Assembly (NCBI GenBank): GCA_037833965.1
Contig: AP031353.1
Location: 5,210,501 to 5,274,500, forward strand
Direction: 5' to 3'
From: Marchantia polymorpha subsp. ruderalis
Taxonomy: Eukaryota; Streptophyta; Marchantiopsida; Marchantiales; Marchantiaceae
Length of the DNA: 64,000 nt
Made by a program: the position numbers and the translations under genes. The stretch's first letter is position 1. Each line of letters starts with the position of its first letter. A model generated the notes under the pieces. That model was not told the DNA's origin. It did not search any database and saw only the letters and a program-made list of their open reading frames with translations. This document shows, in pieces, positions 53,820 to 60,194 of this stretch.

Positions 53820-54127
53820 CAGAACAAGAAGAAACTCCGATATAGATGAAGATAATTCTTGAGGAACAACAATTGAATTAGCAGGTTATCGTTGGTGAGA
53901 CTCAAGTATTTGCACCAGACGTTAGAGATTAACCTTAATCTTCTACTAGGAAATTATCAAATAAAATTAATAAAGCTACTCCAAGATATGGATTTTGGGC
54001 TGATTCATCCATTCTTGAAGATCGTGACATTGATTTAGAGTATGTTGATATTATTGCATTGACATTGGAAGAATAACCTTTTTCCAAAAGAGAAGCGCAA
54101 TCTTTTGTCAATAAGTTTGAGTAAAGT
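53820..54127 (+). pseudogene. Left part of a decayed Ty1/copia element
   Basis: The sequence reads as a degenerate copia linker and start of reverse transcriptase (YVDIIALTLEE, then PFSKREAQSFVNKFE). It is cut by the insertion of the intact gypsy element after 54127. Skipping that element and one copy of AAAGT, the frame continues at 60195 with the copia RT start (...ATMK-stop-MM, TWKLVEL-like). Confidence 0.6.
54123..54127 (+). repeat. Target-site duplication, left copy (AAAGT)
   Basis: AAAGT directly precedes the 5' LTR and is repeated at 60190-60194 directly after the 3' LTR. Five-base duplications are standard for Ty3/gypsy integrase. Confidence 0.9.
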
Positions 54128-54212
54128 TGTAACCATCTTTAGTTAGTTAGAACTAAAGTAGAGGTTACTCTGAATATTGATGTAGATACTTTAGTGTGCA
54201 CTAGTCATAGCT

Positions 54213-54385
54213 GCCACGTCAGCGATCCGCGCACTTGGTAGGTACAGAGTGGATGTGTTAGTTGACAGTGCCACGTCAGCAATCCGTGTGCTTGTAGCTA
54301 AGGATTGAGTGTGTTAGTTAGTGTGTTAGTTAGGTGCGCCACGTCAGCGATCCGTGTGCTTGTTAGGGTTATCCGCCACGTCATC
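54213..54385 (+). promoter_or_regulatory. Four ACGT-core motifs in U3
   Basis: GCCACGTCAGC occurs at 54213-54223, 54270-54280 and 54338-54348, and GCCACGTCATC at 54375-54385. The reverse complement core TGACGTGGC is a C-box/G-box hybrid known as a binding site for plant bZIP factors. Three copies are embedded in a larger degenerate repeat ending in ATCCGTGTGCTTGT. The array lies 60-240 bp upstream of the TATA box. The same array is present in the 3' LTR (59855-60027). Confidence 0.65.
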
Positions 54386-54451
54386 CATCCACTATGAGAG
54401 GTATGGATGGTGGGGATTAGATCTTATCACCTTGTACTTGTTGGTGAGAGC

Positions 54452-54458
54452 TATATAA
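54452..54458 (+). promoter_or_regulatory. LTR TATA box
   Basis: TATATAA within GAGCTATATAAGGGAG, about 90 bp before the LTR end. This would place the transcription start (U3/R boundary) near 54485 and give an R-U5 of about 60 bp. Inference from position and sequence only. Confidence 0.7.
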
Positions 54459-54548
54459 GGGAGAGGATAACCATTGTTGGTATCTCTCATCTTCAGAGTT
54501 TACGTTTCTATCTTCGAGTGAACTTCTCTCTAAACCCTAGTGTTACAA

Positions 54549-54560
54549 TGGTATCAGAGC
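54549..54560 (+). other. Primer-binding site for initiator tRNA-Met
   Basis: TGGTATCAGAGC begins two bases after the LTR end and is complementary to the 3' end of plant initiator tRNA-Met, the commonest primer of plant LTR retrotransposons. An ATG overlapping it (54548-54550) opens an 18-codon uORF. Confidence 0.95.
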
Positions 54561-54711
54561 GACCTTGCTCTTTCCTTGAGTGTGGATTACCCCTCATGGA
54601 ATAGCAAGTGAGTGATGATGGAGTGTAGTCTTGAGAGTGTATAGAGGCTGGCAGAGGTCATTCATCTGCATGTAGAGAGAGGTGGAAGGGGGACATTGTG
54701 TTTTTGCAGAT

Positions 54712-54930
54712 ATGGACGGGATTGACAGGAATCCAGTACCGCACTGGCCAATTCCTAACCTATTCGATATTCACCTTCGTTGCATGGAGAAACATCATTT
54801 TCGGATGTACCTTGTGGCTTGTTGGGGTGCAGATTTTATGACTAGAGTGATGGAGTCAAGAGTGCCACTGATTCTTCCAATAGTTACTTATGGAGAGACT
54901 TGGGATTGTACTATATACATTCTATACTGA
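54712..54930 (+). CDS. Leader ORF1 of the gypsy element (72 aa, unknown)
   Basis: A 72-residue frame between the primer-binding site and gag, starting MDGIDRNPVPHWPIPN and ending CTIYILY. The ATG has G at -3 and G at +4, a strong context. It aligns without gaps over about 40 residues with leader ORF2: both share R-x-x-x-LV-x-x-x-G, then RVMESRVPLILP in ORF1 against AVIESPAPFVTP in ORF2, and both end I-x-x-LY. No known domain recognised. Plant chromoviruses usually have an untranslated leader here. It may be an accessory protein or a regulatory uORF. Confidence 0.55.
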   Translation: MDGIDRNPVPHWPIPNLFDIHLRCMEKHHFRMYLVACWGADFMTRVMESRVPLILPIVTYGETWDCTIYILY

Positions 54931-54937
54931 TTGTTTC

Positions 54938-55144
54938 ATGGATTTGAATCGCGAACCACCTGTCCCGGTTCGATTCAGCACTTATGTAGAGATTAGAACA
55001 GTATATAGACAGAAGAGGATATGGAGAGATTTTCTTGTGAGGAATTATGGAGAGGAGTACTATAGAGCTGTGATAGAGTCACCTGCACCTTTTGTGACTC
55101 CTTTGTTGAGAGGTCACATAGTGATTATACTCACTTTGTATTAG
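54938..55144 (+). CDS. Leader ORF2 of the gypsy element (68 aa, unknown)
   Basis: A 68-residue frame starting MDLNREPPVPVRFSTY and ending IVIILTLY, 7 nt after the ORF1 stop and in another frame; its stop lies 17 nt before the gag ATG. It appears to be a diverged duplicate of ORF1. The basic, aromatic middle (YRQKRIWRDFLVRNYGEEYY) could be a helix. The ATG context is weaker (T at -3, G at +4). Translation would need reinitiation or leaky scanning, so it could also serve mainly to tune gag translation. Confidence 0.55.
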   Translation: MDLNREPPVPVRFSTYVEIRTVYRQKRIWRDFLVRNYGEEYYRAVIESPAPFVTPLLRGHIVIILTLY

Positions 55145-55161
55145 AGGGAGTGTGAAAAAGC

Positions 55162-56325
55162 ATGGGAACATCAATTGATATGGGTGAGGTTCTCAATGCA
55201 ATCATGGCAGAGATGAAGGAGTTGAGAAAAGCGATAGTAGATGGGCATACCAAGCAGCAAGCCATGGAAGATAAAATCTTTGCATTAGAGAGTGAGAAAG
55301 TAGAGAGAGAGAGAGTTGGAGAGATGGAAGTTGAACCTCAAGTTCAAGCTTCCCAAGTTCAGCCAGAACCAACTCCTATTGATGCAGCAGAGGCAAATAG
55401 GAGACGTCTTCAAGAGATTGAAGATCAAGCAAATCTTTTGCTTCGAATGGGAAAATCCTGTAAGGTGGAAGCTTACAAAGGGAGTAGAGCAATGGGAGTG
55501 TTAGAGGGATGGATTATGAGGATGAATATTCATTTATCCCATTTTCATGTTTCTGATTATATTGCAGGAATGTTCATGAGATCTTATCTTACGGATAAGG
55601 CTCTCACATGGTACACAACATGGGAGAGAATGCTTTCAGAACGAGGTGCTACCATTTCGTGGAGTGGAATGCAGGAAGGACTTCTGCAAAATTTTCAAGC
55701 GGTGGATTCTCTTCAAACTGCAAGAATGAAGTTGTGGGATCTGAAGCAGAAAGGAGGTATTCATGAGTACATTGAAGAATTTCGTGATCTTCAAGTATCT
55801 ATCATGGATATGAGTGGAGCTGAAGCCTTGGACGTGTTCAAACGAGGCTTGAAAGATCGAATTCGAAAGGAGGTGATGGTAAGCAATCCATCTACTGTGA
55901 ATGAAGCAATCGCAATTGCTCAACGAATTTCAGGTGCTTTTGGTGTCACACACGGTGAGCCAGTGAGCAATTTTAGAGATCCATCTGGTCCAACACCGAT
56001 GGAGTTGGGAAACCTTCGACGTAGAGAAGGTTTTGCACCAACAAGAGGACCACCACCAAGATTTGGAGGTGAGATTAGGCGACCAGGAGTTCCAAATTTG
56101 CAAGAAGGTTATGCAAATAATGGAATGGTTCGAGGAGGAGCTGGAGTTCGTGACAATCGCCAATGCTATGCATGTGGACGAATGGGCCACATAGCCAAGT
56201 TTTGTCGAGTTCGGCCGACACAACAAGGAGGACGGCCCATGCAGCGACGACCGTTCAACAATATGGAGGGGATAGAGTATGAAGAGGTGGAGGAAGCAGT
56301 TTCGGGAAACGAAGATCACCAGTAA
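55162..56325 (+). CDS. gag: Gag polyprotein of the gypsy element
   Basis: 387 residues, capsid-forming structural protein. The N-terminal part is a coiled-coil-like Glu/Lys-rich helix (to about residue 65). It is followed by the retrotransposon Gag capsid domain (typical ALTWYTTWE and the [20 protein letters not shown] region) and a Gly/Arg/Pro-rich RNA-binding segment. A CCHC zinc knuckle [14 protein letters not shown] lies at residues 335-348. The tail is acidic. The ATG has A at -3 and G at +4. The last codons overlap the frameshift signal, and the stop TAA (56323-56325) lies inside its predicted first stem. Confidence 0.95.
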
Positions 56326-59300
56326 TCTTGCCTCGCGGCCTTACTGGTTCTACAAAGCGAAGAAAAGGCGAGGTTGGAAGAAAGCAATGGTTGGGAGCTC
56401 ATGGAAGGAGTAAGAAGCAAGCTCAACTCATTGTCACTGATGGTTTCATGGAAGGACACAAGGTGAGAGTTTTAATTGATCCTGGAGCAACTGAGAATTT
56501 TCTATCAAGGAGTGTTGCTATGAAGTTAGGTTTGATGTTGATGAAGGACGTGAGTGAAGAAGTTGAATTGCCAAACGGGCAAACTGAAGTGATAGAAACA
56601 CTACCACGGAGTGTAGAATTATCCATAGGTAGATACAAGGAGAGCATTGAATGGAGAGTAATTCGTTTAGCTCGGTATGATGTCATCCTTGGAATGCCAT
56701 GGATGGAACAATATAATCCGAAGGTAGATTGGAGAAGAAAAGTGATTACAAGTAGTGGATGGAAGATCTATGGAGATAGAATTAGATCTCAGAATAGGAA
56801 TTTACCCCTCTTTGTGATGGGTACAGCATCCATTTCTAGAGATGATGTATGTTTCCTTGGACTTATAAGAGATATTGGGTCCACGGACAAACCTTACATC
56901 CCGGAGTCCTTGAACGACATTTTTATGGAGTATAAAGATGTTTTTCCAGATGATCTACCTGCAGGATTACCACCAAAGAGGCGAGTTGATCACAAGATTG
57001 AGGTGATACCTGGAAGTACACCAACTTGCAAAGCTCCATATCGTTTGGCTCCAAACGAATTGGAAGAATGCAAGGCTCAAGTGGAGGAGATGTTGAGCAA
57101 GGGATTCATTCAACCAAGTGTTTCACCTTATGGAGCTCCAGTACTCTTTGTGAAGAAGAAGGATGGATCCATGAGACTATGTATTGATTATCGCGGGTTG
57201 AATCAGCAAACGGTGAAAAACAAATATCCATTACCTCGTATGGATGATTTGTTTGATCAACTTCAAGGAGCGAAGTACTTCACCAAGCTAGATTTGAGAA
57301 GCGGCTACAATCAAATTCGAATTGCAGATGAAGATGTTCACAAGACAGCTTTTCGTACTAGGTATGGACACTTTGAGTATCTGGTGATGCCTTTTGGTCT
57401 CACTAATGCACCAGCTACATTCATGGGATTGATGAACGATATCTTTCGCCCTTATCTAGATAAATCTGTCATTGTTTTTCTAGATGATATATTGGTGTAT
57501 AGCAAAACTTTGAATGATCATAGAAGTCATTTACGAGAGGTACTTCAAGTTTTAAGAGACAATCAATTGTATGCCAAAGCTTCAAAATGTGAATTTGGCA
57601 AGTCAGAAGTAGATTACTTGGGTCATAGAGTTACAGCTACAGGAATCCAAGTGATGAGTGAGAAGATAGATGCCATTCAGAATTGGATAGCACCTGAGGA
57701 TCAAACTCAATTGAAGAGTTTTCTAGGGCTCACTGGATTCTATCGTAGATTTGTGAAAGGTTTTGCTCGACTAGCTCAGGCCTTGACTTCCATGTTAGGG
57801 AAAGGTCAAAAGTGGAGATGGGGAACAGCTCAAGAGTTAGCTTTTCAAGCATTGAAAGATGCTTTGTTACACGCACCTATTCTCAAGTGGTATGATCCTA
57901 ACCGTTCTATCAAGTTGGCCACTGACGCATCAGGTACAACAGTAGGTGGCATACTTCAACAAGAATGGGAGGATGGATGGCATCCAGTTGCTTTCTATTC
58001 TCGAAAGTTGGTGGCGGCGGAACAAAATTATCACACGACAGAACGGGAGGAGTTAGCTATCGTGTTGGCAACCAAACATTGGAAGCATTATTTGGGTGAT
58101 AAGGAGTTTGTGGTGGAGACTGATCATAAACCCTTGGTTTATTTGGAAACTCAGAAGGATCTGTCCAAACGACAAATTCGATGGGCAGAGTGGCGTCAAC
58201 GCTTCAACATGAAGATTGTGTACGTGGAGGGAAAGAAGCAACTTGCAGATGCTCTCACACGCATGCCTTGTTTGAATCATGTTGCAGAAGTGAAAATTCA
58301 GGCGGATTGGTGGAGCAAGATGTCACAAGCCACAAAGGAGGATGAAGAGATCACTCGAGCACTACAAACTGGAAAGGCAGAGAAATCTCGAGGTTTGGCG
58401 TTTTACAATCAGCGTATATGGATTCCACAAGATCAGGATTTGCGCACAATGATTTTGGCAGAAAGTCATGATACAGCCATTGCAGGTCATGTGGGAGTGG
58501 AGAAAACCGTGGAGAGTATACAACGAGTGTACTATTGGCCCAAAATACGTGAGGATGTGGAGTCTTACGTTCGAAGTTGTGTTGCTTGTCAACAAAACAA
58601 GGCAAGTAATCAAAAACCAGCGGGTTTATTACAACCTCTTCCTATTCCCGAACAGCGGTGGGAACATGTCACCATGGATCTTGTATGTGAGTTACCAAGG
58701 ACTTCGTTAGGACATGATTCAGTGGTGGTTTTTGTGGACAAATTGAGCAAGATGATTCACATCAGGCCAACCACAAAAACAGTAACAGCTCCACAACTAG
58801 CTCAATTGTATCTAGATGCAGTTTTTGTGAATCATGGCTTAAGCAAAGTGTTAATCACGGATAGAGGTACTCACTTCACTAGTTTATTTTGGAAAACTTT
58901 GTTTAGTTTTTTCAAAACAAAACTAGCAATGTCAACGGCCTATCACCCTCAAACTGATGGACAAACTGAGAGGGCAAATAGAACCATAGAGGATATGCTA
59001 CGAGCATTCACATTAGAAGAGCAAGAAGAGTGGGACAACCTTTTGCCACTTGTGGAATTTGCATATAACAATTCTGTTAATGCATCCACAAAAGCGTCTC
59101 CATTTTTTCTTATGTATGGAGCTCATCCGATAACTCCTTCAAGTTTGATAAGACTTCCGAAAGGAGAGGAGTTTTCGACCAAAGTTGCAGCAGTCAACGA
59201 ATTCGTGGAGCATATTCACCGAGGACTACATCAGGCCAAGGAGAAGTTGGTGATAGCTCAAAATCGGCAAAAGCAGCATGCCGATGCTCATCGTAGAGAA

Positions 59301-59756
59301 GTGATTTTTGAGGTTGGAGATCATGTTTGGTTATCTACAACGAATTTGTCTCTTGTAGGAACATCAAAGTTAAACCCTAGGTTCATTGGTCCATTTTTGG
59401 TTTTGAAGCGTGTTGGTGAAGTGTCATACAAGTTGGAACTTCCGTCACATATGAAAATACATCCAGTATTTCATGTGTCACGATTGCGAAAACATGTACC
59501 ACGACCAAAACAATTCACCAACCAACCAGCACCACCTCCTCTTCCAACCTTGATAGCAGATCATGAGGAGTTTGAGGTAGAAAAGATACTCAAGAAACGT
59601 ATTCGAGGTCATAAATATCCCAAAGTAGAGTATTTGATTCAATGGAAAGGCTATCCATCGTATGAATCAACTTGGGAACCAGCTAAAAATTTAGCAAATG
59701 CACCTTTGATAGTTCAGGAGTTTGAACGTATGTGCAACGAGGACGTTGCATCTTAA
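56283..59756 (+). CDS. pol: Pol polyprotein of the gypsy element (via -1 frameshift)
   Basis: The frame is open from 56283 to TAA at 59756, with no ATG near its start; expression is expected as Gag-Pol by frameshifting at 56304-56310. Numbering residues from 56328 (1142 codons), the aspartic protease has [13 protein letters not shown] (Asp51; D-P-G rather than D-S/T-G, a variant also found in plant gypsy elements). RT has [34 protein letters not shown] and catalytic LDD at 385-387. RNase H has [10 protein letters not shown] (Asp533) and ETDHKP. Integrase has the zinc site His714, His721, Cys751, Cys754 and the catalytic triad Asp784, Asp845, Glu881 (D-x35-E). The C terminus (about 1081-1133) is a chromodomain ([10 protein letters not shown] ... 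YLIQWKGY ... STWEP). All catalytic residues are present. Confidence 0.95.
56304..56373 (+). promoter_or_regulatory. Candidate -1 ribosomal frameshift signal with pseudoknot
   Basis: The heptamer GGGAAAC (56304-56310) sits in the gag frame as G GGA AAC, the canonical X XXY YYZ register. After a 7-nt spacer comes an 8-bp stem, ACCAGTAA (56318-56325) with TTACTGGT (56341-56348). Loop bases CCTCGC (56331-56336) can pair with GCGAGG (56368-56373) to give an H-type pseudoknot with an A-rich 19-nt third loop. Pol is in exactly the -1 frame, open from 56283. A fraction of ribosomes would slip and make Gag-Pol. Structure is by inspection only. Confidence 0.75.
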
Positions 59757-59769
59757 AAGGAGGGAGGTT
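59755..59769 (+). other. Polypurine tract
   Basis: AAAAGGAGGGAGGTT lies directly before the 3' LTR, the expected primer site for plus-strand DNA synthesis. It overlaps the end of the pol stop codon. Confidence 0.85.
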
Positions 59770-60189
59770 TGTAACCATCTTTAGTTAGTTAGAACTAAAG
59801 TAGAGGTTACTCTGAATATTGATGTAGATACTTTAGTGTGCACTAGTCATAGCTGCCACGTCAGCGATCCGCGCACTTGGTAGGTACAGAGTGGATGTGT
59901 TAGTTGACAGTGCCACGTCAGCAATCCGTGTGCTTGTAGCTAAGGATTGAGTGTGTTAGTTAGTGTGTTAGTTAGGTGCGCCACGTCAGCGATCCGTGTG
60001 CTTGTTAGGGTTATCCGCCACGTCATCCATCCACTATGAGAGGTATGGATGGTGGGGATTAGATCTTATCACCTTGTACTTGTTGGTGAGAGCTATATAA
60101 GGGAGAGGATAACCATTGTTGGTATCTCTCATCTTCAGAGTTTACGTTTCTATCTTCGAGTGAACTTCTCTCTAAACCCTAGTGTTACA
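59770..60189 (+). repeat. 3' LTR (420 bp)
   Basis: Identical to the 5' LTR over all 420 bases by line-by-line reading, including the four ACGT motifs and the TATA box. It should supply the polyadenylation region for the element's RNA. Confidence 0.97.
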
Positions 60190-60194
60190 AAAGT
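60190..60194 (+). repeat. Target-site duplication, right copy (AAAGT)
   Basis: Matches 54123-54127 exactly. Confidence 0.9.

Follow-up and report, generated by a model that had tools for sequence, protein, structure and literature searches.

A candidate −1 frameshift signal at the gag-pol overlap of a chromovirus in the liverwort Marchantia polymorpha

How is Pol made by a retrotransposon whose pol gene lies in a different reading frame from gag? The question is raised by a long terminal repeat (LTR) retrotransposon at positions 54128 to 60189 of a 64,000-nucleotide stretch of Marchantia polymorpha subsp. ruderalis DNA (contig AP031353.1, positions 5,210,501 to 5,274,500 of the forward strand; here called the window), which belongs to a genome of 241 Mb in nine contigs. 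The gag open reading frame (ORF) runs from 55162 to 56325 and ends with TAA at 56323 to 56325, and pol is open from 56283 to 59756, exactly at −1 to gag as a first-pass annotation of the sequence had stated. Both frames are open in the 43 nucleotides (nt) from 56283 to 56325. We propose, with a probability of roughly 0.85, that programmed −1 frameshifting sets the ratio of Gag to Gag-Pol in the liverwort chromovirus lineage to which the element belongs.

The signal at the gag-pol overlap

The overlap contains a slippery heptamer, GGGAAAC, at 56304 to 56310, read in gag as (TC)G GGA AAC, and a 7-nt spacer, GAAGATC, at 56311 to 56317 (all elements of the signal, like gag and pol, lie on the plus strand). 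The spacer is followed by the 5′ arm of stem 1, ACCAGTAA (56318 to 56325), which includes the gag stop codon; loop 1, TCTTG (56326 to 56330); the 5′ arm of stem 2, CCTCGC (56331 to 56336); loop 2, GGCC, 4 nt in length (56337 to 56340); and the 3′ arm of stem 1, TTACTGGT (56341 to 56348). Loop 3 is 19 nt long and A rich, with 10 A residues (56349 to 56367), and separates stem 1 from the 3′ arm of stem 2, GCGAGG (56368 to 56373), which lies 31 nt from its complement. Stem 1 consists of eight perfect pairs and stem 2 of 6 bp, and the heptamer, the spacer, the stem that swallows the gag stop codon, the complementary loop bases and the A-rich third loop are all present where the first-pass annotation had placed them.

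GGGAAAC at 56304 is the sole heptamer of the form X XXY YYZ in the gag frame inside the overlap. Four further in-frame heptamers of this form occur elsewhere in gag, and over all the coding DNA of the element outside the overlap, such heptamers occupy 10 of the 1,513 in-frame slots. One of those in gag, at 56007 to 56013 and outside the overlap with pol, is also GGGAAAC. When first-order random sequences were generated, 99 of 400,000 carried an 8-bp stem 5 to 9 nt downstream together with a 6-bp second stem. Multiplied by hand over about 14 slots, the chance of a heptamer with such a pair of stems is about 2 in 100,000, or about 5 in 100,000 if the density of heptamers in gag itself (five in gag) is used. 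A search of Rfam with positions 56200 to 56500 returned no match up to an E value of 5.

In the mechanism that we propose, Gag would be made by normal translation up to the TAA at 56323. An RNA structure beginning 7 nt past the heptamer would pause ribosomes while GGA occupies the P site and AAC the A site, and a minority of them would slip back by one base, onto GGG and AAA. Continuation in the pol frame would produce a junction such as V-S-G-N-R-R-S-P-V-I-L and, ultimately, Gag-Pol. The stimulator would be a pseudoknot rather than a plain hairpin, and the rate of slippage would govern how much Gag-Pol is made. That programmed slippage controls Gag:Gag-Pol had been put forward from the window alone; the sister copies and the Riccia stems described below support it as a feature of the lineage, and slippage itself and its control of the ratio are the parts that we infer.

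Copies of the element in the Marchantia genome

Genome-wide, the 70-nt signal has 310 matches (149 plus 161) at no more than three mismatches, compared to none for a reversed-pattern control, and among the matches listed, the copies of the signal are exact. For more diverged copies, 77 loci were fetched with variants of a reverse transcriptase (RT) motif and older copies as queries. Of these loci, 58 gave 59 alignments of the gag-pol junction, 49 of them at less than 99% identity, and 55 junctions could be scored for frame, the other 4 failing to span both anchors. Pol is kept at −1 in 44 of the 55, which extend down to 83% identity and include one further copy, L017, at 64% with several indels. 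Seven junctions have a net −1-type shift, among them all five copies with a recurrent deletion (three at 56271, in a run of G, and two at 56303), none of which fuses gag to pol. The remaining four (L015, L050, L054, and L066) have a net indel that would place pol in the gag frame, by four different indels.

A fused gag-pol frame in sister copies, the observation that would have marked the two-frame layout as an accident of the window, was found neither among the 55 scored junctions nor among the matches listed. The longest open frame through gag is 444 codons and the usual one 389, among the matches listed (148 of 1,443 candidates scored; part of the 296 matches). Moreover, a Gag record on a separate 3,370-bp contig (P0001; 99% identity) ends at the same residue, and M. 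polymorpha Gag models match the Gag of the element at 81 to 94%. An indel private to one copy, or an assembly error, is ruled out by the 310 copies of the signal, the P0001 record and the junction frames. We conclude that the family as a whole, and not one copy, has the two-frame layout, because 44 of 55 junctions are at −1 and open frames through gag reach at most 444 codons among the matches listed; the oldest relics are too decayed to add to this. The family is young and successful, with 310 near-identical copies of the signal and identical LTRs in the window copy, and pol is therefore presumably expressed by some route.

Some copies stand in tandem arrays, with four copies 5,635 bp apart at 30250917 to 30267891 of contig C3 (genome G000) and three copies 5,822 bp apart at 10763349 to 10775478 of contig C8, perhaps sharing LTRs. 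Within one decayed copy, L036, the junction region occurs twice in tandem. A pattern search for the protease motif gave no matches, and three scans of viral contigs gave no relatives. An RT-motif pattern revealed another abundant Ty3 family, with 288 matches, most of those listed being alike. As a contrast, its representatives L078 and L079 are too decayed at the gag-pol border to be judged. A frame upstream of RT in L079 (1230 to 2240, minus strand) matches the C-5 cytosine DNA methylase domain PF00145 (E value of 1.2e-7); the frame tested in L078 gave no match.

Conservation in Riccia and the fold of the RNA

The strongest evidence comes from a related chromovirus of the liverwort Riccia sorocarpa, which is represented by protein models, of which P0013 and P0106 are 77% and 70% identical to the window Pol in the aligned part (P0013 over the query region). 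In both, the zinc knuckle is truncated or missing, as would result from an intron annotated over the gag-pol border. Three gag models run on in the frame at +1 to gag, P0006 and P0129 through the border and P0007 to a stop inside it. In the +1 register the tails of P0006 and P0007 are codon compatible with the gag of P0013 at 27 of 33 and 29 of 33 positions, and the P0006 tail is compatible with the pol of P0013 and of P0106 at 24 of 28 and 25 of 28, which places Riccia pol at −1 to gag. The top-ranked values in six shuffled controls of the scan were 0.41 to 0.52.

Overlapping readings of one sequence in several frames fix DNA bases, and bases of the Riccia junction were deduced in this way from P0006 and from the pol residues common to P0013 and P0106 (PRNF.G) only. 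No consistent DNA resulted when P0006 was combined with the whole pol piece of P0106 or with the P0013 piece, or P0129 with either pol set, as expected because the models derive from different element copies. The deduced arms lie at the same spacing as in the window, with CCTCGC in stem 2 and TTGYTGGT in stem 1, where the window has TTACTGGT. The fixed bases equal those of the window at 4 of 5 positions in the heptamer, 4 of 4 in the spacer, 10 of 11 in stem 1 and 9 of 9 in stem 2; the counts are 0 of 3 in loop 1, 1 of 4 in loop 2, 4 of 13 in loop 3 and 2 of 9 in the flanks. For the signal as a whole, 27 of 29 fixed bases are identical (19 of 20 in the stems and 8 of 9 in the heptamer and spacer), compared to 5 of 20 in the loops, with no indels (Fisher P of about 1e-6, calculated on neighboring bases that are not independent of one another). 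The third-frame protein alone, with no assumption about pol, gives 14 of 15 for the stems, 8 of 9 for the heptamer and spacer, and 4 of 18 for the loops.

Protein coding alone appears to be a poor explanation for this pattern, since the loops diverge and both stem arms stay, also at silent positions of pol: the fixed third positions of pol codons are identical in six of six cases in the stems versus two of seven in the loops. Conservation specific to the stems is shown in this second liverwort genus, from deduced bases. The two-part expectation that heptamer and stems be conserved where both frames are held for the stems, the spacer and the spacing, while the loops were not kept; the heptamer differs at one base. 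We conclude that the signal is a feature of the lineage and not an accident, because stems, spacer and spacing are conserved in Riccia, and that it is real and very likely functional.

Several results weigh against this reading. The main one concerns the Riccia heptamer, for which three of three readable copies (P0006, P0129, and P0007) have G N A A R A C; it is not GGGAAAC, and with A as the third X (for example, GGAAAAC or GAAAAAC) it breaks the XXX run. The Riccia bases, moreover, are deduced from annotated proteins, in part by assuming pol residues on which P0013 and P0106 agree. Within M. polymorpha, GGGAAAC is retained in 22 of the 49 diverged junctions and GGAAAAC is read in 6 of them (five loci). 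Below 83% identity, one of four scorable junctions, L017, keeps the frame relation, by way of several indels. Covariation of heptamer, spacer and stems, which the first-pass annotation had offered as a check, was not found among the genomic copies: pairing in stem 1 is 0.911 versus 0.910 by permutation, and pairing in stem 2 (0.880 versus 0.867) is only slightly above its permuted value, which 23 of 500 permutations reach. Mutations in the stems are mostly C to T or G to A and independent of one another. Slower evolution of the signal than of flanking coding DNA was not seen in 38 copies of 75 to 97.5% identity, in which the mismatch rates are 0.087 and 0.096 in the stems, 0.124 in the heptamer and 0.089 overall. 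The mutation pattern within the genome is that of neutral decay of dead copies, which attests ancestry and provides no evidence for selection.

The folding results are likewise divided and bear on which structure would stimulate slippage. Stem 1 alone, as a hairpin at 56318 to 56348, folds well (z score of −3.34), but longer stretches are unremarkable (z scores of −0.65 for a 64-nt fold and −0.84), which counts against the proposal. So does the energy of the pseudoknot, which a crude estimate with a simple penalty puts at −15.1 kcal/mol versus −13.9 to −20.6 kcal/mol for nested folds, depending on the stretch. In addition, the loop between the stems of an H-type pseudoknot is usually shorter than 4 nt. 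Of the H-type pseudoknot first proposed here, the complementarity of the stems is real and both stems are kept in Riccia, but the interstem loop, GGCC, has 4 nt and rival nested folds are equal or better in energy.

Slippage might then occur as we propose but be stimulated by a nested stem-loop instead of an H-type pseudoknot, and the energies speak for this alternative, with a nested fold at −17.6 kcal/mol (56318 to 56380) or −20.6 kcal/mol (56318 to 56400) compared to about −15.1 kcal/mol. We consider it unlikely from what the deduced Riccia bases allow: one nested fold has 19 pairs of its own, of which 6 could not form and 7 are certain, whereas stems 1 and 2 comprise 14 pairs, with 7 certain and none impossible. 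This difference in pair feasibility favors the pseudoknot as the structure that has been conserved.

The Gag proteins of Calypogeia fissa (P0130) and of a relative (P0003) end in ENEENL followed by a stop, with E-N at the same distance from the stop codon as G-N in the window element. On one reading, G GAA AAC is the older slip site and G GGA AAC is derived; on another, the slip site has moved in Calypogeia. Tentatively, and at somewhat less than even odds, a liverwort-wide lineage may have kept −1 frameshifting on a single pseudoknot framework since before the split of Marchantia and Riccia from Calypogeia, with the slip site turning over from a G GAA AAC-like form (Riccia; Calypogeia being compatible) to G GGA AAC. 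Such a lineage would provide the first known case of −1 recoding among plant LTR retrotransposons.

Other routes to Pol and the place of the element among its relatives

Pol could also be translated without Gag, by reinitiation or internal initiation after Gag terminates. The pol frame was at first thought to have no usable ATG, a statement that proved too strong: an in-frame ATG at 56448 lies 10 codons before the protease motif DPGAT and is a possible start. Three out-of-frame ATGs intervene (56387, 56401, and 56440), however, and a start at 56448 would leave the heptamer, the stems and their conservation unexplained, as well as a pol frame that is open well upstream; we regard this route as improbable. 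More improbable still is splicing, with the gag stop codon removed from the RNA that encodes Pol. Ogre elements provide a precedent for splicing (PMC6317226; this and the other sources are cited for the passages that bear on the points given), and the Riccia models P0013 and P0106 connect gag and pol over the border by what reads as an annotated intron. Part of the zinc knuckle is lost with such introns, however, which look as though a gene finder had bridged two frames, and splicing would not require conserved stems. Least probable of all is that the frame difference is neutral or disabling and that the family is mobilized with Pol in trans, which hundreds of near-identical copies would permit in principle but which sits poorly with a window pol open over 3.4 kb and with a −1 layout and stems common to Riccia.

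The rest of the element is that of a chromovirus, with LTRs, primer site, polypurine tract and target-site duplication all present. The 420-bp LTRs (54128 to 54547 and 59770 to 60189, plus strand) are identical, and the 5′ copy begins with TG and ends with CA; they are flanked by target-site duplications, AAAGT, at 54123 to 54127 and 60190 to 60194. The primer binding site, TGGTATCAGAGC (54549 to 54560, plus strand), is one that we take to be of the tRNA-Met type, and the polypurine tract region lies at 59751 to 59769 on the same strand. Gag contains a Ty3 capsid and a CCHC zinc knuckle, with Pfam matches to PF19259 and PF03732 and with PF00098 slightly below its cutoff. The pol frame encodes protease, RT, RNase H, integrase and a chromodomain (PF08284, PF00078, PF17919/PF17917, PF17921, and PF00385) and is open across 3.4 kb. 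The element is a Ty3/gypsy chromovirus by its order of protease, RT, RNase H and integrase and by its C-terminal chromodomain. Tcn1 elements have been described as mostly self-primed, and the tRNA-Met-type primer site speaks against membership in that clade. Between 54480 and 55161, ahead of gag, the leader contains 15 ATGs. It also has two short ORFs, one of 72 codons (54712 to 54930) and one of 84 (54890 to 55144), and gag initiation in such a leader may need a special mode.

GGGAAAC followed by an H-type pseudoknot is known from −1 sites at retroviral gag-pro and gag-pol borders, both simian type D and lentiviral. The liverwort signal shares with these sites the heptamer, a spacer in the usual range, a putative downstream pseudoknot and a gag stop codon soon after the slip site. 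It differs in belonging to a plant Ty3-type element, in its 4-nt interstem loop and in being known here from sequence alone. The mechanism is already known from retroviruses; the host group and the class of element are the new part.

Sireviruses belong to the Ty1/copia superfamily. They, too, are plant retrotransposons with a recoding-type signal and a conserved stem at the gag-pol border, but their pol is at +1 and the structure is different (PMC5009743). According to the same source, −1 frameshifting LTR retrotransposons of animals made up 28 of 51 surveyed in 2003; they resemble the window element in having pol at −1 to gag and a classical tandem shift site, whereas only two types of plant element then had separate gag and pol frames, both with pol at +1. 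That plant chromoviruses mostly have one fused gag-pol frame, as the first-pass annotation stated, agrees with descriptions of a single ORF in Beta chromoviruses (PMC3605345) and in Selaginella elements (PMC3350952) and with a statement that a single ORF is found in most plant groups and two ORFs in some (PMC6317226). These one-ORF elements share with the window element the Ty3 domain order, a chromodomain in most and, in Selaginella, a tRNA-Met-type primer site; the window element, unlike them, has gag and pol in two overlapping frames. The Riccia element (P0013, P0106, P0006, and P0129) has pol at −1 and, in the deduced bases, the same stems and spacing, although its heptamer differs at the third base and its loops have diverged. 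Most plant retrotransposons are elsewhere said to have a single ORF, and most Gypsy elements to use +1 frameshifting (PMC3735527), and a December 2025 review lists frameshifting among general strategies, its detailed plant examples being spliced elements (PMC12786077). We found no −1 gag-pol frameshift in plant LTR retrotransposons in searches of the open-licence literature, in which the 2003 survey was covered through PMC5009743 alone, and a −1 case could lie unremarked among the two-ORF groups of PMC6317226.

How plant LTR retrotransposons produce more Gag than Pol has been explained for few of them, by splicing or within a single ORF (PMC12786077 and PMC3735527). A retrovirus-like −1 signal would mean that plant Ty3 elements, too, have the retroviral solution. 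The finding also carries a caution for annotators, as gene models can bridge or overrun such junctions, as the Riccia models appear to do. Finally, in a liverwort related to a laboratory model, such a signal would let plant ribosomes be tested directly on a native sequence of this kind.

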